A stretch of 64,000 bases of DNA from an uncultured Acholeplasmatales bacterium. Lineage in GTDB: Bacteria > Bacillota_I > Bacilli_A > Acholeplasmatales > Anaeroplasmataceae. The position numbers and the translations under genes are program-made. How positions within the stretch are numbered: the first letter of the stretch is position 1; each line of letters starts with the position of its first letter. The notes under the pieces were generated by a model that saw only the letters and a list, made by a program, of their open reading frames with translations, did no database searches and had not been told where the DNA came from. Shown piece by piece: positions 4,764 to 34,158 of this stretch. The stretch is taken from NCBI GenBank assembly GCA_944324705.1, contig CALUXI010000001.1, positions 62,001 to 126,000 of the forward strand, given 5' to 3'.

Positions 4764-4969
4764 CTGTAGTCTGTTAACTAATAATCAATACAGGAACATT
4801 TATGTTCTCTGGTTCAAGGAGTTTACAGCTACAGTCTTTTCTTTTATATGGTTATTGGTTGGTTACAGCTTCATTTTTGAATGTCTAGTTATAAAGTGCT
4901 AGTTAACATTGAGAATTGGTTGTAGATAGTACCAGCGTTAAATATTTAATATTATTTTGGAGGTACCAA
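4764..4969 (+). ncRNA. Candidate IS110 bridge RNA in the transposase leader
   Basis: The leader contains an imperfect stem pairing CTGTAG-T-CTGTTAAC (4764-4778) with GTTTACAG-CTACAG (4821-4834). It encloses a perfect GAACAT/ATGTTC hairpin. It is followed by about 130 non-coding bases before the transposase. IS110-group elements are known to encode their bridge RNA in this position, with a 5' stem-loop and two internal loops that pair with target and donor DNA. The fold is seen here by eye, and the function is inferred from family and position. Confidence 0.5.
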
Positions 4970-6145
4970 ATGATCTTCGTTGGAATTGATGTGGCTAGTG
5001 ATAAACATGATGTTATGATCATGAATAATTCACACAAACAATTTCAGAAAAATTCTTTAAGAATTGCTAATAATTCTCTAGGTTTTAAAAAACTCCACGA
5101 AACAATTCAAAATGTTTGTGGAGCTAATCAAGATTATACTGTTCGTATAGGTCTTGAATCTACTGGTTTTTTCCATATCAACTTAGTCAATTTCCTTTTA
5201 GAAAAAAACTATGATATTATGGTAATTAACCCTCTTTTAACCAAAAGTGACAAGAAGCGTTATTCTGTTCGCCCTCAAAAAACGGATAAGATTGACGCTA
5301 TTGCCCTTTGTAAGTATGTTAGTGATACTAATTTAGTATTCATTCCCTATACAAGACAATCTTACCATAATGAACTTTTAAAGTCACTATCTAGAAATAG
5401 ATTTTCTTTAGTTGAAAGAAGGACACGAGAAAAATTAACTGTTTTCCGTATAGTAACCCTTATTTTTCCTGAATATATTAAGCTTTTTTCAAATCTATGC
5501 TCTGTATCATCTTTAAATATTTTAGCCAAATATTTATCTGCCGATAAGATAGCTAAAGCTCATACAGATACCTTAAAATCTTTGATTCATGGTAAATGTC
5601 AAATTACTGCTGAACAAATTAAGGAAGCTGCTAAAAATACCATTGGTTCGTCAAATGAAGCTTATGAACTTGAATTAAAACACGCCATTGAAAATATTAA
5701 TGCACTTAATAATCAAATAGCTGACTATGATAATTTAATCAAGAAAACCATTAAAGAATCAAACATTAAACTTCTTTCTATACCTGGTATTTCATATATT
5801 ACAGCTGCCACTATTCTAGGTGAAATAGGTGACATCTCTCGTTTTAAGAGCCCCGATTCAATTATATCATATGCAGGTCTTGATTTGATTGTATATGAAT
5901 CTGGTAAATATAAATCAAGTGGACTGCATATATCTAAAAAGGGTTCTAGATATTTAAGGCATACCTTATTTCAAGTAGCTAAAATTATTTGGCAATGTGA
6001 TAAACAGTTTAATGAATACTACACCAAAAAGAAAAATGAAGGCAAACCATTTTTAACTATTATGGGGCATATTCAAAAGAAATTAGTAAGGGTAATATAT
6101 TCTGTCCTAAAGAACGATAAGGACTATGTTGTTCCACAAAACTAA
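4970..6145 (+). CDS. IS110-family transposase (DEDD/Tnp_20)
   Basis: RuvC-like DEDD recombinase of about 391 residues. The N-terminal domain begins MIFVGIDVASDKHD (first Asp), followed by GLESTGFF (Glu) and TDKIDAIAL (Asp pair). A coiled middle section precedes the C-terminal transposase_20 domain with IPGISYITAATILGEIGD, SYAGLD and SKKGSRYLR, which holds the expected catalytic serine. The ATG at 4970 has a strong GGAGG ribosome site eight bases upstream, so it is preferred to an earlier in-frame ATG at 4916. The gene appears complete. Confidence 0.93.
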   Translation: MIFVGIDVASDKHDVMIMNNSHKQFQKNSLRIANNSLGFKKLHETIQNVCGANQDYTVRIGLESTGFFHINLVNFLLEKNYDIMVINPLLTKSDKKRYSVRPQKTDKIDAIALCKYVSDTNLVFIPYTRQSYHNELLKSLSRNRFSLVERRTREKLTVFRIVTLIFPEYIKLFSNLCSVSSLNILAKYLSADKIAKAHTDTLKSLIHGKCQITAEQIKEAAKNTIGSSNEAYELELKHAIENINALNNQIADYDNLIKKTIKESNIKLLSIPGISYITAATILGEIGDISRFKSPDSIISYAGLDLIVYESGKYKSSGLHISKKGSRYLRHTLFQVAKIIWQCDKQFNEYYTKKKNEGKPFLTIMGHIQKKLVRVIYSVLKNDKDYVVPQN

Positions 6146-8529: not shown

Positions 8530-8558
8530 TTGACAGCGCTTTCATTATATGCTAGTAT
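8530..8558 (+). promoter_or_regulatory. Sigma-A promoter with cre-like site for a small RNA
   Basis: TTGACA (8530-8535), a 17-base spacer, and TAGTAT (8553-8558). The sequence TGACAGCGCTTTCA at 8531-8544 matches the CcpA cre consensus TGWAANCGNTNWCA at 13 of 14 positions and overlaps the -35 box, a repressing position. The uronide operon promoter at 30524-30552 has the same arrangement. No coding gene follows on this strand. Confidence 0.75.
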
Positions 8559-8564
8559 ATAGTT

Positions 8565-8758
8565 GCAAAGAGGGATACACTAAGTAAGAAAACTTACTTA
8601 TTGTAAATAAATAAGTCAGTCAACTAGAAACTATTTAAAGGAACATTAAATGAGTCTTTAAAAAGGAATATGATATTAGTAGGTTAAATGGTAAATTGAC
8701 GACGAGAAAAGAAGAGTTTGTTATACTTTTTAGAAAATGACAAGACTCTTCTTTTTTT
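8565..8758 (+). ncRNA. Stand-alone small RNA of unknown class (~190 nt)
   Basis: Lies in the gap between two genes that both read on the other strand. It starts about seven bases after a near-consensus -10 and ends at a strong terminator: AAGAAGAGT (8709-8717) pairs with ACTCTTCTT (8745-8753), then T7. Internal hairpins are TAAGTAAG-AAAA-CTTACTTA (8581-8600, perfect) and TTTAAAG/CTTTAAA (8634-8662). Only tiny open frames (3-5 codons) follow its two AAAGGA-like sites, so it is probably untranslated. I could not match it to 6S, tmRNA, SRP, RNase P or a known riboswitch. Confidence 0.65.
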
Positions 8759-8768
8759 ATATAAAAAA

Positions 8769-8787
8769 CCTCAAGCTAAACTTGAGG
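8769..8787 (-). terminator. Terminator of the DUF2085 gene
   Basis: CCTCAAG (8769-8775) pairs with CTTGAGG (8781-8787). Read on the minus strand it is followed by T6. It overlaps the gene's stop codon. Confidence 0.8.
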
Positions 8788-9162
8788 AAATAAACTAATT
8801 GTATGTTCTACTACTAAAAATAATAAGCTCATAACACCATAACCAGCAAGGAGTCCTGTTATTAATCTTAAAATATTATTAGATTCTCTAAAACCCATAA
8901 ATTGTGTTTCCCCGTCAATTATAAGGGGTAAAGTTAAAATAATACTTAAATGAATATTTTCTGGTAAAAAGACACACAATATGGGACTTAGAATAAGTAA
9001 ACTACTATAAAAGCCAGTACATCGCGCACATAAAGGCATTTGCCTATTTCTAATAATAAAAGAACGTTCTTTAATTTGATGACAACCAAAGATGAGAGAA
9101 AAGATTTCCATCATCTTCTTCCATCTTATAAATTGTTTTTCTGTTAAAGGTTTAGAAGTCAT
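8776..9162 (-). CDS. DUF2085 membrane protein
   Basis: About 128 residues. The hallmark cysteine/histidine cluster FGCHQIKERSF ... MPLCARCTGFY and the loop LIIDGETQFMGFRESNN identify the DUF2085 family, small membrane proteins of unknown function with several hydrophobic helices. The ATG at 9162 overlaps the end of the upstream zinc-ribbon gene by about 11 bases, suggesting coupled translation. An earlier in-frame ATG at 9213 would lie deep inside that gene and is less likely. Confidence 0.8.
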   Translation of the reverse strand: MTSKPLTEKQFIRWKKMMEIFSLIFGCHQIKERSFIIRNRQMPLCARCTGFYSSLLILSPILCVFLPENIHLSIILTLPLIIDGETQFMGFRESNNILRLITGLLAGYGVMSLLFLVVEHTISLFPQV

Positions 9163-9694
9163 GACCACAATTACGGCAATGACGAATATATTTCTTATTT
9201 TTATTAGTTCCAATTAATCCGGCTAAAAAACCAATTGGGAAACACAAGATACCACAAACAACCCCTAAGACAACATTATAACCATTACCTTGTTTAACTT
9301 CAAAATCAATTTGGGTTGAACCACAAAGTGGGCATTTAATAGCTGAGCCAGATTCAACCGGACCAACCTTAATCCGTTTCCCGCAGTTAGTACAAAAAAC
9401 ACTGTCTTTTTCATTTATTTGGCCACAATGTGGGCACTTAACAGCTTCTACAATGTCATTTTGTTTAAGATTAGACCCACAAACAGAACAATAATTCATA
9501 TCAGGGTCATTAGGATTACCACACTTAGGACATATAATTTGTCCATCAATAGTCCTCTTAATTTCATCAGAGTTAGCCGTCATACTACTACCTGCAAAAT
9601 TATTAACAACTAAATCCGCCCCACAATATACACAAAACTTATTTTCCGGATCATTTTCTCTACCACATTTGGGACATATTCTTTTTTCTGCCAT
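9152..9694 (-). CDS. Multi-zinc-ribbon membrane protein
   Basis: About 180 residues with four Cys4 ribbons: CPKCGRENDPENKFCVYCG, CPKCGNPNDPDMNYCSVCG, CPHCGQINEKDSVFCTNCG, and a split ribbon CPLCG ... CRNCG around a hydrophobic stretch (GYNVVLGVVCGILCFPIGF). Such stacked zinc ribbons occur in membrane-linked proteins of Firmicutes, but the role is unknown. The ATG at 9694 follows GGAGG. It is followed by the coupled DUF2085 gene. Confidence 0.8.
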   Translation of the reverse strand: MAEKRICPKCGRENDPENKFCVYCGADLVVNNFAGSSMTANSDEIKRTIDGQIICPKCGNPNDPDMNYCSVCGSNLKQNDIVEAVKCPHCGQINEKDSVFCTNCGKRIKVGPVESGSAIKCPLCGSTQIDFEVKQGNGYNVVLGVVCGILCFPIGFLAGLIGTNKNKKYIRHCRNCGHDF

Positions 9695-25975: not shown

Positions 25976-27961
25976 TTATAAGCCTGCCATTTCTTTGTAG
26001 GCATCTTGATAAATTTTTTGATAACTTTCAACTCCACCATCTTTGAAATATTGATAGTATTGTTCATAAGTTTGTGGAACTGTTACTTGTGCAGGATCAA
26101 GACCACGGATTATATTGAAAATTGGTTCAAAGAATCCCGTATCTGTTGCGATTTTCAATTGAGTAACTTGTGCATTTTGATTCTTATTTAATGAGAATGC
26201 AGGTGGAACTAAACGATAATAGTTAGGATTTGAACCTTCTGCAAATTTACCATCACCACCATAAGTAGGCATACCTACCCCAGCGTTTGTATAAAGTTCT
26301 ACAGCATCTAGTCCACGTTGAGATGTATATTGATATTCAAAACCAATTTCTTTTTGATAACCAATTGGCATTTGTGAACCAATAACTTGTCTTAAGAAAT
26401 TAGAATAATCCCCCGCATTATAGATATCAGCTTGTTCTTTTACTCAATCTGTATAAGCAGGATAATCAACACCATCTGGACCTTTGAATGTTTCACCTTC
26501 TTTAATCATATCAGGTAAACCATAATTTTGTAATTGATAGCCTTCTTCAGTGAAGAAATAATCAAATAATTTTAACGCTTGTTCTAAATGTGTTTCATCA
26601 ATTTGTGCAGAAATAGCCCAACCATCTGGTTTAATAACTCTACTATTATCTACATAATGTTGCCATACACCATTTACATTAGCAACTGGAGGTAAAATAG
26701 CAACTACATCATCATTTAAAGAATCAGCTGTTGTTGAAGCTGTAAAATCATAACACATAAAACCAAATTGTTTTTGATTAGCTACATCATCAGAACCATA
26801 AAGACGAGCTCTTAAGTCTGCTTTTGAATTAGGATCTGTAAGTGAATCACCAAAAATTAACCCTTCTTCATTCCAATCGGCAATATTAGTAACTACATTG
26901 TATACTTCTTCTGTTGAATATGTGTAATATATTTGACCTTCTTTATTATATGCCCAACGTGATTCATAAGAATCTGAGCCATTAACTTTTACACCATCAA
27001 AATAAGTAGCAAATCTTAATACTTCTTCACGATAAGCTGGTTGACGAGTAAACCAAGCATAAGTTTCAGCATCACTCTTACCAGTTAAATAAGTAGGGTT
27101 AGCCATAACACAACGCCATAAAGCTACCATTTCATCAATATCATATGCTGCTTTTTCACCTAAATATAATTCAGATGGATTTTCATAATCATAATTACGT
27201 TCAATATATTCTCTTAAGGCATTAGCATATGTAGCACCATTCTTAGTTTGTAAATTATTCATTATTTCAATGATATTTTCATCAGTTTTCTTAGTAGGTA
27301 AACCTTCTATTTCTTTAGCACGTGGATGATCTTTAGTATAGAATGGTTGATAAGCTGTATCACCTACTGAATCAGGGTCAAAACTTGGATTTTCAGCATC
27401 TAATAATTTAGTAATCCATGACCCTCTAACGTGGTAAAGTCTAGCATAGTTACCAATTTCAGCTACATAAGGCAAATGATAAATATGTCCATTATAAGCT
27501 GTAATTGCATCTTTGATGTTTTGATTTTCATCTAAATATTTTTTCAAATTTGGCATTTTATCTAAGTGCTCATCTAAAGCAATAAACATACCATCAGCAC
27601 CTTGTGCCATAAGTTGATCAGCAATTGAGTTACCACCAAAGATATCAGCATCTTTAAATTGGGTTGCTGCATTAGTTGTAATCATTTCTTGTGCTTTTTC
27701 TTGTTGTGGAGCCACATCTTCAATCTCAATGCCTAGTTGTTTTTCAACATATTGCCACATAGGCTTTAAATCACCACTTGAAACTACTGTACCATCTGGC
27801 ATAGTGATAGGTGAACTCATATTATAAGTTAAAGTCTTTTTAGTATCACCATATGACAAGTGTAATCTTAACGCATCGGATCCACTGTCGCCACCGCAAC
27901 TTGCTAGAGCTAACACACTTAACGTGCTTAATCCTAAAGCTCCAAATAATTTTCTTTTCAT
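25976..27961 (-). pseudogene. Sugar ABC transporter binding lipoprotein with in-frame TGA
   Basis: Lipoprotein signal peptide KRKLFGALGLSTLSVLALASC, then a large LplA/YtcQ-like extracellular solute-binding protein. The reading frame is open from 27961 to 25976 (662 codons) except for one TGA at 26444-26446, after GVDYPAYTD and before VKEQADIYNAGDYS. The parts on both sides are in the same frame and fit one protein of normal length. A TGG-to-TGA change would explain it. Without readthrough the last 156 residues are lost. All other operon genes are intact. Confidence 0.85.
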
Positions 27962-28002
27962 TTTTTCCTCCTGTTATTTTTTGTTATTGTATGTTAAAAG
28001 GA

Positions 28003-28866
28003 TTAACCTTTTACACCACCTAAATTTACACCTTTTGCAAAATACTTTTGAATATAAGGATATATTACTAATACTGGTATAATTGAACATAGTATTATTG
28101 CATATACAAAACTATCCATTGCATAAGGTAAATCAACTTGTCCCGTATCAGCTAAAGCATTAAACTCTTCTATTTTTTGTCTTAAATAAACCTGTAACGG
28201 AATTTCTTCACCACTAGTTACAAGTAAGCTTGCCCAGTAATAACCATTCCACCTACTAATAGCATAGAATAAAGTTACAGTCGCTACTGTAGCTGATGAC
28301 ATCGGACAGTAAATTTTGCCAAATACTTGGAATTCACTAGCACCATCAACAATAGCTGCTTCTTCTATTTCTGTAGGAACTGTAGAAAATTGATTTCTCA
28401 ATAATATAATATTATAAGCTTGAATACCAAAGGCTATAATCATACCCCATCTATTATCAACATTTAATTCTTTATAGTTCAAATAGAGAGGAATCATACC
28501 TGCAGTAAACCACATTGTAAATACTAATAAGAAATTCCATTTTCTCTTACCAATTAGTTTATCCTTGGATAAAGCATACGCACCTGTTAAAGAAATTGCC
28601 ATACTCCAGAGTGTCCCAAATACAGTGTAGAATAAAGTATTTGTATAAGAAACCCAAAAGTCTTTATCAATAATAACATTTTGATAAGCTGCAAGAGTTA
28701 TATCTTCTGGCCATAAGACAATTCTCCCAGCTTCATAAACACCTCTACCAGATATAGAAACACTAAATGCATAAACAATCGGGTATAAAGCTAATAAAGC
28801 AAATATTCCTACTAAGGTATAAGCTATTATTTTAAAAATTATTTCACTTTTTGATAACCGTTCCAT
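28003..28866 (-). CDS. Sugar ABC transporter permease (YtcP/LplC type)
   Basis: 287 residues with six helices and the binding-protein-dependent transport loop EEAAIVDGASEFQVFGKIYC (EAA motif) that contacts the ATPase. N-terminal helix IAYTLVGIFALLALYPIVYA. It is typical of the second permease of large-oligosaccharide importers. It follows the first permease by seven bases and precedes the binding lipoprotein. Confidence 0.93.
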   Translation of the reverse strand: MERLSKSEIIFKIIAYTLVGIFALLALYPIVYAFSVSISGRGVYEAGRIVLWPEDITLAAYQNVIIDKDFWVSYTNTLFYTVFGTLWSMAISLTGAYALSKDKLIGKRKWNFLLVFTMWFTAGMIPLYLNYKELNVDNRWGMIIAFGIQAYNIILLRNQFSTVPTEIEEAAIVDGASEFQVFGKIYCPMSSATVATVTLFYAISRWNGYYWASLLVTSGEEIPLQVYLRQKIEEFNALADTGQVDLPYAMDSFVYAIILCSIIPVLVIYPYIQKYFAKGVNLGGVKG

Positions 28867-28873
28867 AATCTAC

Positions 28874-29845
28874 CTACCATAATGAAGTTTTTGATACTTG
28901 TCTACTTATAGTATTTGCACCTATAACTAAAGCAAAACCAATCAAACTATTAAAGATACCCGAAGCCGCACCTAAACTATAATTACCACTAATTAAACCT
29001 ATACGCTGTTCGAATGTTGATAAAACATCGGCTGTTACATAAGTATTCTGATTATATAACAAGATAACTCTTTCATATCCGACAGATAACATCTTACCTA
29101 TACGCATAATAATCATAATAATTAAAGTAGGGGCCATACCCGGTAAAGTTACATACTTAATCTCTTGCCATTTATTACCACCATCTACTCTTATTGCTTC
29201 ATATAAAGCTGGGGAAATACCCATTATGGCAGCAAAATAAACAATTGAATCATAACCACTTTCTTTCCAAATACCAGTTATGATATATATTGGTCTAAAG
29301 TAATTCGGGGTTTCAATAATTCGCATTCCCCCATCTTCTGCCAAGCCTAAGGATATCATTAACCTCGCTATTACCCCCGTAGTTGATGATCCATTATAGA
29401 CAAGTAATATTACAATACCTGTTATTGTTACTTCTGACAAAAAGTGTGGTAAGTAAGTAATGGTTTGTGTAACTTTTCTAAACCAATTACTATTTATTTC
29501 ACTAAAGAATAAAGCTAAAATAATTGGAATAGGGAAACCAAAAAGCAAACCATAGGCACTGATTATAAAAGTATTACGGAATGCTTGCCAAAAGTTTGTT
29601 GCTTGTCCACCTGAAATTAAGGTAATAAAGTTAGAAAAACCAACAAAATCAGAATTAAACATACCTTTAGATGCTTCATAATCCTTAAACGCAATGATAA
29701 GACCCAACATAGGTTTATATGCCCAAATTAAATACCACAATACAATCGGTAACAACAAAAGATAAAGTTGCCAGTTCTTTTTAAAGCTAAACCAATAGTC
29801 TCGTGGTGTCTTACTCACTTCTACTTTCAAGTCTTTCGTGCTCAT
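28874..29845 (-). CDS. Sugar ABC transporter permease (LplB type)
   Basis: About 323 residues, six helices, with the EAA loop seen as ALYEAIRVDGGNKWQEIKYV. N-terminal region WQLYLLLLPIVLWYLIWAYKP is typical of LplB/YteP permeases of uronide and complex-sugar importers. The ATG at 29845 has GGAGG six bases upstream and overlaps the end of the 202-residue membrane gene by about 35 bases. Confidence 0.92.
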   Translation of the reverse strand: MSTKDLKVEVSKTPRDYWFSFKKNWQLYLLLLPIVLWYLIWAYKPMLGLIIAFKDYEASKGMFNSDFVGFSNFITLISGGQATNFWQAFRNTFIISAYGLLFGFPIPIILALFFSEINSNWFRKVTQTITYLPHFLSEVTITGIVILLVYNGSSTTGVIARLMISLGLAEDGGMRIIETPNYFRPIYIITGIWKESGYDSIVYFAAIMGISPALYEAIRVDGGNKWQEIKYVTLPGMAPTLIIMIIMRIGKMLSVGYERVILLYNQNTYVTADVLSTFEQRIGLISGNYSLGAASGIFNSLIGFALVIGANTISRQVSKTSLW

Positions 29846-30419
29846 ATTCATCCTCCTTCTGTACATCTATAATATATTCATCCATATCACATATAAGGTC
29901 AGTTTTGTATTTAAATATGTATAAGAAAATTAAAGATATGACTAGTGATAACATAATTGATACCAAATAATTAGCAAAACCATAAAAACTATGTTCAATT
30001 ATAAGTATTGCCAACCCTTTACCAACTACTAAACATAAATAAGCGATCAAAATATAAATCAAAAAGCCAAAACTGCTTTCGATTCTCTTATTTCTATTTT
30101 TATTACCTAAATAAATTAAACTTAGTAACATGAATAAAGGGGCTATTATGTAATAAATAATTCCTTCATAAAGTTTTAATGGCTCATCAGTCATAACACC
30201 ATTATGATTAAGTATTAAAGCTACTACTCCGCTTACTAATAAAGGGACTATACCAACATAAGACCATCTAACTATAGAAATTATAGAAATCATTATGGCA
30301 AATGATATATAAAACCCAGAATTGAAAAAATTAAACATATAAGTACTTAAAAATTCACTTAATCCTGCTAATATAGAAAATATCAATATATCTATTAGCA
30401 TAAATTTTCGCCTTGACAC
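29811..30419 (-). CDS. Six-helix membrane protein heading the uronide operon
   Basis: 202 residues with about six hydrophobic helices (IDILIFSILAGLSEFLSTYM onward) and an acidic, charged C-terminal tail. Size and topology recall S-components of ECF transporters, but no binding motif is seen, so it is left unassigned. GTG at 30419 follows AAGGAAG; an ATG at 30401 is an alternative start. It is the first gene after the CcpA-site promoter. Confidence 0.65.
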   Translation of the reverse strand: MSRRKFMLIDILIFSILAGLSEFLSTYMFNFFNSGFYISFAIMISIISIVRWSYVGIVPLLVSGVVALILNHNGVMTDEPLKLYEGIIYYIIAPLFMLLSLIYLGNKNRNKRIESSFGFLIYILIAYLCLVVGKGLAILIIEHSFYGFANYLVSIMLSLVISLIFLYIFKYKTDLICDMDEYIIDVQKEDEYEHERLESRSE

Positions 30420-30523: not shown

Positions 30524-30552
30524 ATAATACAACTTAATGAAAACGCTGTCAA
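30524..30552 (-). promoter_or_regulatory. Promoter of the uronide operon with perfect cre site
   Basis: On the minus strand TTGACA (30552-30547), 17 bases, TATTAT (30529-30524). The plus-strand sequence TGAAAACGCTGTCA (30538-30551) matches the CcpA cre consensus at all constrained positions and overlaps the -35 box. This predicts glucose repression of the long lyase/ABC operon. Confidence 0.85.
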
Positions 30553-31648: not shown

Positions 31649-32839
31649 TTACCAAAACTTTATAACGTTTCTTTTTACAAGTTTTACTAAAAGTTCACAA
31701 ATAAAATAATCTCCCCATAGACAAAACTCATTCATTCCTTTAGTATCAACAAAAGGTGAATGATATATTTGATGACGTAATAAACCATCTTCAGTACTTA
31801 TATCTTTAGATAAATAATCATTTTTAATTAAAGAATTTAATACTGCTTTAAAAACTTTTCTATATATTTTGGTTTCTTCTTCTGTCAATAAATTAGTATC
31901 TAACATTTCTAAAATACCTAATAACGCTATAACTGTAGCACTTGAATCTTTCATAACATCATCATAATTGTCGTAAGAAAAATCCCACGGTGAAACTAGA
32001 TCTGAAGGTAACATATCTAAAAACTTATTTAACAAACTTTTAGCTAAATAAAACAAATCTTTCCTATCTTGATTATACTTATAGCTCAACATTAAACCAT
32101 AGATTCCCCAAGCTTGCCCACGAGCCCAACAACTTTCATCACTTTTACCTTGATGAGTTTTGCCATATAAAGGTTTGCCAGTTTCAACATCAAAATAGTA
32201 CGTATGATACGTTGTATAATCTGGTCTAATTAAAACTTGAATTGCTTTATCAAGATGACTTAATGCAACTTCTTTATAACTTTTGTCACCAGTTAACGAA
32301 CTTACTTCATATAAAAGTGGTAAATTCATGAATGTATCAATAATGATTCTACCAGCATTTTCACCCGGTTCACCAATATTTCCCCAGGCTTGAATTACAC
32401 CACATTTATTTAAAAATCTATTCTTTAAAGTATCGGCGGCCATAATTAAAGTTTTCTTATAATCTTCATTTTTAAACATTTTGTATAAAGCACCTGCTGA
32501 AATTGAATATAAAAAACCTGCATCATGATTTTTTATGCCTAGATTACCTAATTTAGCCATCTTTTTCAACTCTTCATATTGTTTTAAGGCATAAAATAAT
32601 AAATTATCGTCCTTTTGCCACATATAAAGTTGTAAAATTTGTCCTGTACAAAATCCCTTAGTCCATTCAAAGCCTTTTGCCTCTCTATATTTATCACACA
32701 ATGAACTACTTGACCAAAAACCACCCTTAAATTTATCTAACATCTTTAAGGTTTTTTGTCTAAATGCTTCTAAATAAATTATTAATTCTTCTTTAGTAAT
32801 TCTAGCATTCTTATATTTGTTTATATTTATTAATTCCAT
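31649..32839 (-). CDS. GH88 unsaturated glucuronyl hydrolase
   Basis: 396 residues, (alpha/alpha)6 barrel. The two conserved aspartates of the family are in KNHDAGFLYS and RIIIDTFMNLP, and the aromatic block WARGQAWGIYGLMLSY is also typical. The enzyme hydrates the unsaturated uronate left by a polysaccharide lyase and so releases it from the neighbouring sugar. No signal peptide. Divergent from GH105, with which it shares the intergenic operator. Confidence 0.92.
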   Translation of the reverse strand: MELININKYKNARITKEELIIYLEAFRQKTLKMLDKFKGGFWSSSSLCDKYREAKGFEWTKGFCTGQILQLYMWQKDDNLLFYALKQYEELKKMAKLGNLGIKNHDAGFLYSISAGALYKMFKNEDYKKTLIMAADTLKNRFLNKCGVIQAWGNIGEPGENAGRIIIDTFMNLPLLYEVSSLTGDKSYKEVALSHLDKAIQVLIRPDYTTYHTYYFDVETGKPLYGKTHQGKSDESCWARGQAWGIYGLMLSYKYNQDRKDLFYLAKSLLNKFLDMLPSDLVSPWDFSYDNYDDVMKDSSATVIALLGILEMLDTNLLTEEETKIYRKVFKAVLNSLIKNDYLSKDISTEDGLLRHQIYHSPFVDTKGMNEFCLWGDYFICELLVKLVKRNVIKFW

Positions 32840-32856
32840 AATTAACCTCCATTTAT

Positions 32857-32961
32857 AAAATAAGCCTTAAATTTCATTTTGTCAACAAAAAAGTTCATAT
32901 ATATAAATTTAATTTAAAATTATAAATTTTTATTGACTATTTTAAGTAATAGCGCTATTAT
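32857..32961. promoter_or_regulatory. Divergent promoters of GH88 and GH105
   Basis: Minus strand: TTGACA (32885-32880), 17 bases, TATTTT (32862-32857) for GH88. Plus strand: TTGACT (32933-32938), 17 bases, TATTAT (32956-32961) for GH105. Between them lies TTCATATATATAAA (32894-32907), a half-decayed form of the locus operator. The plus promoter also shares AATTTTTATTGAC with the esterase promoter. TAATAGCGCTATTA (32947-32960), a perfect palindrome, overlaps the plus -10. Confidence 0.75.
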
Positions 32962-32982
32962 TAAAATAGCTTGGAGGTATAT

Positions 32983-34158
32983 ATGGAAAACAATTTAAAA
33001 GAAAACATCAATAAATATATCAATTATTTATTAGAAAATTCAACAATTGAAAAGCCTTTATGGAATAAGGAAGTCTTAATTGGCCTAAAAAAACCTGGTT
33101 GGACTTACATTGATGGCTGCATGATGGTAGGTCTTGCTGGACTTTATGATTACACAAAAGATGAAAAAATATTCAAATATATTGAAAACTTCATTTCGCC
33201 ATTAGTTCCTGAAGATGGTAAAGTTAAGCTATATTTTTATGATAATTATAATAATTATACTGAATTTGGTATTGATTCAGATCCATGTAATATGGCTAAA
33301 GTTTTATATCTATTATATGATAAAACAAAAAATGAAAAATATTTAAAAGCTATTAATTATTTTATGGATGAACAAGTTAGAAAGCTACCTCGTGTAGAAG
33401 GTAACTTCTGGCATAAAATTAAATATTATAATCAAATTTGGTTAGATGGGTTATACATGATTCAACCATTCTTTGCCGAATATACTAAACGTTATGAAGA
33501 TAAACGTAGTTATTATGATATAGTTTATCAATTAAAACATGCTTTTGAAGTAACTTGGGATGAAAAGAAAAAACTTAATGTTCACGGTTATGATGGCATG
33601 TATAAAAACGAAAAAGAAAGATCAGCTTGGGCTGACCCAAATAATGGTAGATCACCTATGGTTTGGTTAAGAGCTAATGGCTGGTATGTAATGGCTTTGA
33701 TTGATTGTTATGAGATAATTGATGATGAATTCTTAAGACAAGAAATTAAAGATTTAATTAAAACAACTATTGATGGTTTACTTCTTTATTTAGATGAAAA
33801 AACTAAGATGTTCTATCAAGTTCCAGATATGTCAAAACGTGAAAAAAACTATGTCGAAACATCTGGTACAGCTATGATAGCATATACTATATTAAAGTCT
33901 GTTCGCTTAAATGCTTTAGATATATCTTACAAAAAAGTAGGTTTAGAAATATTTGAAGGTATTTGTAATACTTACTTTAAGGAAGAAAATGGTCACTTTA
34001 CATTAGGAGGAATATGTATTGGAGCAGGTCTATCAGCTTCAAAAACCGATAAATCTGTTGGAACTTACGATATGTATGTAACTCGCAAAATTGTAAGTGA
34101 TGATGGTAAAGCCATAGGTCCTTTTATCCTTGCCTACGTTGAAGCGAATAGATTATAA
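32983..34158 (+). CDS. GH105 unsaturated rhamnogalacturonyl/glucuronyl hydrolase (YteR-like)
   Basis: 391 residues. GH105 signatures include GIDSDPCNMAKVLYLLYD and IWLDGLYMIQPFFAEY, carrying the Asp residues equivalent to YteR, then SPMVWLRANGWYVMALID and the tail GTYDMYVTRKIV. It cleaves unsaturated galacturonyl-rhamnose or glucuronyl ends by hydration. Cytoplasmic by lack of signal. The ATG at 32983 follows TTGGAGG. Confidence 0.92.
   Translation: MENNLKENINKYINYLLENSTIEKPLWNKEVLIGLKKPGWTYIDGCMMVGLAGLYDYTKDEKIFKYIENFISPLVPEDGKVKLYFYDNYNNYTEFGIDSDPCNMAKVLYLLYDKTKNEKYLKAINYFMDEQVRKLPRVEGNFWHKIKYYNQIWLDGLYMIQPFFAEYTKRYEDKRSYYDIVYQLKHAFEVTWDEKKKLNVHGYDGMYKNEKERSAWADPNNGRSPMVWLRANGWYVMALIDCYEIIDDEFLRQEIKDLIKTTIDGLLLYLDEKTKMFYQVPDMSKREKNYVETSGTAMIAYTILKSVRLNALDISYKKVGLEIFEGICNTYFKEENGHFTLGGICIGAGLSASKTDKSVGTYDMYVTRKIVSDDGKAIGPFILAYVEANRL

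Follow-up and report, generated by a model that had tools for sequence, protein, structure and literature searches.

Repression by CcpA from cre sites that lie over -35 elements is a well-established mode of control. Among the CcpA-controlled RNAs that are similar in size to the one described here and regulate metabolism by pairing are SR1 and the sponge RosA of Bacillus subtilis and RsaI of Staphylococcus aureus (PMC8464778, PMC8216469, PMC9266662), the last of which CcpA represses in the presence of glucose and releases upon starvation (PMC9266662). For the Acholeplasmatales, the open-access literature searched describes no CcpA-controlled small RNA. The locus considered here occupies positions 8530-8758 of a 64,000-nucleotide stretch of DNA (the window) from an uncultured member of this order, whose genome is referred to below as the host genome.

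At this place the initial annotation had proposed a stand-alone non-coding unit of about 190 nt with a near-consensus promoter, a strong terminator and no open frame for a peptide, all of which was borne out, the promoter and terminator coordinates being exact, and it is virtually certain that 8530-8758 is a real, free-standing sRNA gene. The promoter (8530-8558, on the plus strand like all parts of the gene), seen both in a reading of the sequence and in a promoter scan, consists of the -35 hexamer TTGACA (8530-8535), a 17-nt spacer and the TG-extended -10 element (TGC)TAGTAT (8553-8558). The hexamer is kept in eight of nine loci, being replaced by TTAACA in the gdhA-side copy of the host genome. 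The promoter is followed by an RNA of about 194 nt (8565-8758; copy B of the host genome), whose start is set 7 nt past the -10 element and which ends with the U-tract of a strong, long-stem intrinsic terminator (8706-8758) that carries ACUUUUU in its loop region. This terminator is visible in folds and alignments and was omitted by a simple terminator scan because its loop exceeds the limit of that scan. The transcript is supported by its homologues, by the covariance model R1 described below and by its fold of -42.6 kcal/mol (z = -4.3 against shuffles), and ORFs on the RNA strand reach 14 codons at most. Downstream lies a convergent gene for a DUF2085 membrane protein (8776-9213, minus strand; Pfam PF09858). 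Since the downstream gene is convergent for every copy but G005a, the first of two copies in genome G005, behind which the tandem copy lies instead, the sRNA constitutes a transcription unit of its own.

Within the RNA, a 5' purine-rich stretch that is conserved in the alignments, GCAAAGAGGGA (8565-8575), is followed by stem P1 (8576-8605; UACA.UAAGUAAG / CUUACUUA.UGUA), by an unpaired linker, AAUAAAUAA (8606-8614), which the alignments place within an invariant UGUAAAUAAAUA block, and by stem P2 (8615-8703; GUC.GUCAA at 8615-8623 with UUGAC.GAC at 8696-8703), which encloses a variable P3 region. The comparison of related genomes for covariation that had been suggested at the outset was run, and P1, P2 and a small P3 hairpin are supported by compensatory changes, those in P2 being C-G to A-U, U-A to C-G and C-G to U-A. 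For a structure proposed from the fold of one member, and within a small set of 7 to 9 sequences, 90.2% of the cells pair in a sequence-only alignment (A1), with 10 pairs showing double changes as compared with 3.7 in shuffles and none of 500 shuffles reaching as high, and sliding of the partners lowers the pairing from 90% to 41-59%. A model-fitted alignment (A4), which leans towards the structure, gives 12 pairs with double changes. With 77% of cells pairing, the longer P3 stem is a weak one, and in the window-type copies it is different. In some species the apex of P1 carries inserts of about 100 nt that fold on themselves into stems, as at L041:2514-2784 and L042:2081-2355, and the insert in G001 is longer still. 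The 5' purine-rich stretch is unpaired in individual minimum-energy folds; RNAalifold prefers its AAAGAGGG segment paired with the 3' arm of the terminator, a pairing of purine with pyrimidine runs that could easily arise by chance.

Homologous loci are present in all eight sampled genomes of the genus, itself composed of uncultured Acholeplasmatales, and comprise nine distinct sequences, those of G002 and G007 being identical and counted once. A DNA search recovered homologues in other genomes of the genus and showed that the host genome has a further copy, at G000:C4:57682-57877. The model R1, which covers the P1-P2-P3 core and was built from seven homologues that it matches by construction, finds matches at E <= 0.01 in only one of 28 genera (160 genomes of the order). 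With filters off it gives 8563-8705 a score of 108.9 bits, the window copy being itself in the model; that default filters miss this copy is a filter artefact. In the two most diverged species, which the DNA search did not recover, R1 gives a weak match in G006 (20 bits), located precisely where it is expected, and no match in G001. In both, TTGACAGCGCTTACAT stands in the corresponding position upstream of gdhA together with a similar 5' motif, and P1 is rebuilt with other bases as UUACAUAG/CUAUGUAA; these loci are regarded as family members on account of their position, promoter and stem P1. The family is thus conserved throughout the genus, lack of conservation having been named at the outset as grounds against the gene. 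A weak R1 match in G066 (E 0.051) was set aside, there being no family promoter or 5' motif in the region; viral contigs gave no match to the promoter-plus-5'-motif pattern, and pattern matches in contigs of Lactobacillus, Actinomycetaceae, Lachnospiraceae and Proteobacteria came with no significant R1 match and were rejected.

In every sampled genome of the genus, one sRNA locus, regarded as the founding one of the family, is divergent from gdhA, the gene for glutamate dehydrogenase (in the host an NADP-type protein, NF006929). By eye, a thioredoxin-like gene usually lies behind gdhA, and a pyruvate-kinase-like gene is located farther out in G002, G003 and G004. The host genome has one copy beside gdhA and the window copy beside the DUF2085 gene, the latter being a diverged paralogue of the former. 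G002 and G007 have a single copy between gdhA and a DUF2085 gene, the one in G002 likewise matching Pfam PF09858, and in G005 two tandem copies, both equipped with a cre promoter and a terminator, are found at L040:2444-2904 (minus strand; G005:C22). The window copy and the second tandem copy, G005b, have in common a central block, AATGAGTCTTTAAAAAGGAATATG, which is absent from the gdhA-side copies, and we infer that gdhA and DUF2085 ancestrally flanked a tandem pair, which was later split in the host. A long ORF resembling, by eye, IS110-family transposases (4916-6145, plus strand) precedes the window copy by a few kb and could relate to this splitting. Elsewhere around the homologous loci, Rfam models match a fluoride riboswitch (47.3 bits; L010:2954-3025, minus strand, in G003), beyond the transporter-like convergent gene that follows the sRNA, and a group II intron (45.5 bits; L012:2348-2419, minus strand, in G007), downstream of the sRNA and close to where a short contig ends.

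The cre-like operator, TGACAGCGCTTTCA (8531-8544), extends over the -35 element and the first half of the spacer. As had been proposed, 13 of its 14 positions agree with the cre consensus, here TGWAARCGYTWNCW, and it proves to be near-invariant in all nine loci; its sole deviation is the change that makes the -35 hexamer perfect. When the deviating position is left open, the pattern occurs exactly in the window only at 8531-8544 and at 30538-30551, in the promoter of a uronide operon. With at most one mismatch, the window holds 10 matches to the cre pattern against 2.35 expected (palindromes being counted on both strands). At the same stringency, the pattern TTGACAGCGYTTWCA finds three sites in the 1.64-Mb host genome against one for a reversed control, these being the two sRNA copies and the uronide operon, and across the genus the number of sites in a genome ranges from one to four, adding up to 17 as compared with 4 when the pattern is reversed. 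A looser cre consensus shows no genome-wide enrichment, and for this reason the few strict sites are the ones that are credible by sequence alone. Across the nine loci the promoter block TTGACAGCGYTTWCAT is near-invariant while the remaining spacer drifts, as would be expected for an operator laid over a promoter. As to the regulator, the host encodes an HPr kinase and a LacI-family protein that scores 263.7 bits against TIGR01481, which does not reach the NCBI equivalog cut-off of 442 bits; the best solved relatives of this protein are all CcpA, at 219 bits as compared with 97 for the next LacI-family protein, making it a convincing candidate for CcpA. Use of the sRNA's cre by CcpA, with repression as the outcome, is predicted from what is generally known of such sites, and control of the sRNA through cre and CcpA is considered very likely.

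The second exact match in the window substantiates the earlier proposal that the same arrangement is present at the uronide operon, where the cre-over--35 promoter (30538-30552, minus strand), found in pattern scans, is kept in G001, G004, G005 and G007. The first gene of this uronide/oligosaccharide ABC-transporter operon (29811-30419) encodes a membrane protein and is followed by genes for ABC permeases and binding proteins, with genes for GH88-family hydrolases adjoining (26444-30419, 31649-34158); the transported substrate is probably pectin oligosaccharides. The sRNA and this operon are the two recurrent strict cre-over--35 loci of the genus. Palindromes resembling TTCATATATATGAA follow the 30538-30552 promoter, and the recurrence of this arrangement in four other members suggests joint control by CcpA and by a pathway-specific regulator.

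The explanation considered best, and held to be probable, is that of a CcpA-repressed, trans-acting, structured regulatory or sponge RNA of about 194 nt. In this proposed scheme, the RNA would be transcribed from a strong housekeeping promoter, which CcpA together with HPr-Ser-P bound to cre would occlude at its -35 element when a preferred sugar is present, such that the sRNA would be made when sugar is scarce. It would then pair in trans through its conserved unpaired parts, namely the 5' GCAAAGAGGGA stretch, the AAAUAAAUA linker and the ACUUUUU terminator loop, with mRNAs involved in carbon or nitrogen metabolism or, as a sponge, with another small RNA. We infer the response to sugar, its repressive direction and the pairing mode, and action in trans by pairing, taken separately, is likewise rated as likely. 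Duplex scans against the start regions of gdhA, trxA and pyk gave no signal above shuffles, and in a scan against 55 ORFs of the window the best z, -2.8 among 220 tests, is at chance level.

A narrower alternative is that of a CcpA-controlled sponge in the strict sense, whose G/A-rich motif at the 5' end would sequester a small RNA rich in C and U, in the manner of RosA with RoxS and FsrA, with mRNAs not being direct targets. Consistent with that, RosA is itself CcpA-repressed, up to 225 nt long and equipped with G-rich regions (PMC8216469, PMC8464778), and the 5' GAGGG motif of the present RNA is conserved and unpaired in most folds; against it, the motif is single and short, and no RsaE/RoxS homologue that could serve as C-rich partner was found above cut-off in the genus. 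Taken alone, this version is rather unlikely. Quite doubtful is a bolder reading, in which catabolite control, including the carbon-nitrogen node at gdhA, would be delegated largely to a duplicated RNA acting as hub or sponge. It is prompted by the scarcity of the strict promoter, of which each genome has only one to four instances, the recurrent loci being the sRNA and the pectin-oligosaccharide transporter operon.

The gdhA-side cre could also serve mainly the divergent gdhA promoter, the sRNA being secondary, as the site is located between two divergent transcription units and upstream of gdhA. However, the window copy and G005b, neither of which adjoins gdhA, still keep the TTGACAGCGYTTWCAT block with cre over their own -35 elements, which argues that the site serves the RNA itself, and at 22 gdhA loci of other genera of the family neither such a promoter nor a cre was found upstream of gdhA. 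This reading is judged improbable.

That the RNA can be matched to no known class, as had been stated earlier, is confirmed by Rfam 15, of which all families were searched against the window and six homologue loci, with no match at the RNA at the gathering score and chance matches only at relaxed thresholds. Neither the 6S RNA (RF00013) nor the RsaE/RoxS (RF01820) covariance model matches at the sRNA locus; there is also no Rfam match to RsaI/RsaOG at the locus or its homologues, RsaOG being presumably one of the Rfam 15 families. By the measure of Rfam 15 the sRNA is thus a new family, of a known functional kind. A further rival is a diverged 6S or other housekeeping RNA, a strong match to which had been named beforehand as a finding that would speak against the annotation. 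The length is similar, the pairing of the 5' end with the terminator 3' arm preferred by RNAalifold would fit, and one could be hidden, as no 6S RNA is recognised above the Rfam cut-off in 41 sampled genomes of the order, where it has either disappeared or diverged beyond the reach of the model. However, besides the missing Rfam match, the RNA folds into separate hairpins and not into one long rod with a central bubble, is duplicated, has a cre promoter and is detected in one genus only, which makes this identity very improbable. Equally remote is a small-protein mRNA with a dual function like SR1/SR1P, in favour of which the 5' motif is Shine-Dalgarno-like (AAGGAGG in G003) and is followed in G005b by TTG and 12 further codons, whereas the other copies have no start codon after the motif and no ORF is conserved.

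With this locus, the Acholeplasmatales gain an RNA family absent from Rfam 15 for which promoter, operator and conserved structure are defined, and which offers a concrete handle on the switching between sugar and pectin-derived uronides in uncultured bacteria. Of the described RNAs, RosA resembles it in having CcpA/cre control at the promoter, a length of about 200 nt, a G-rich motif and a limited phylogenetic range, but RosA contains three G-rich regions and its cre spans -1 to +12 (PMC8216469), whereas the present RNA has a single motif at its 5' end and its cre covers the -35 element; the search of the genus for RoxS, the partner of RosA, gave no homologue above cut-off. RsaI/RsaOG is likewise a stand-alone RNA, with no Rfam-level similarity to the present one, and the CcpA response that is known for RsaI is here predicted. 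SR1, at about 205 nt and repressed under glycolytic conditions, is comparable in these respects, yet it encodes SR1P, is controlled mainly by CcpN and has its cre about 260 bp upstream (PMC8464778), whereas the sRNA described here has no SR1P-like ORF and carries its cre over the promoter core. On this comparison, RosA and RsaI may be considered as good role models as SR1, the one named in the initial annotation, and most plausibly the sRNA works like SR1, RsaI or RosA with no detectable relationship to any of them. If true, it would represent a further lineage, after Bacillus with SR1 and RosA and Staphylococcus with RsaI, in which a CcpA-type site controls an RNA of about 200 nt that shows no discernible relationship to the others, which suggests that the same circuit has been invented repeatedly.
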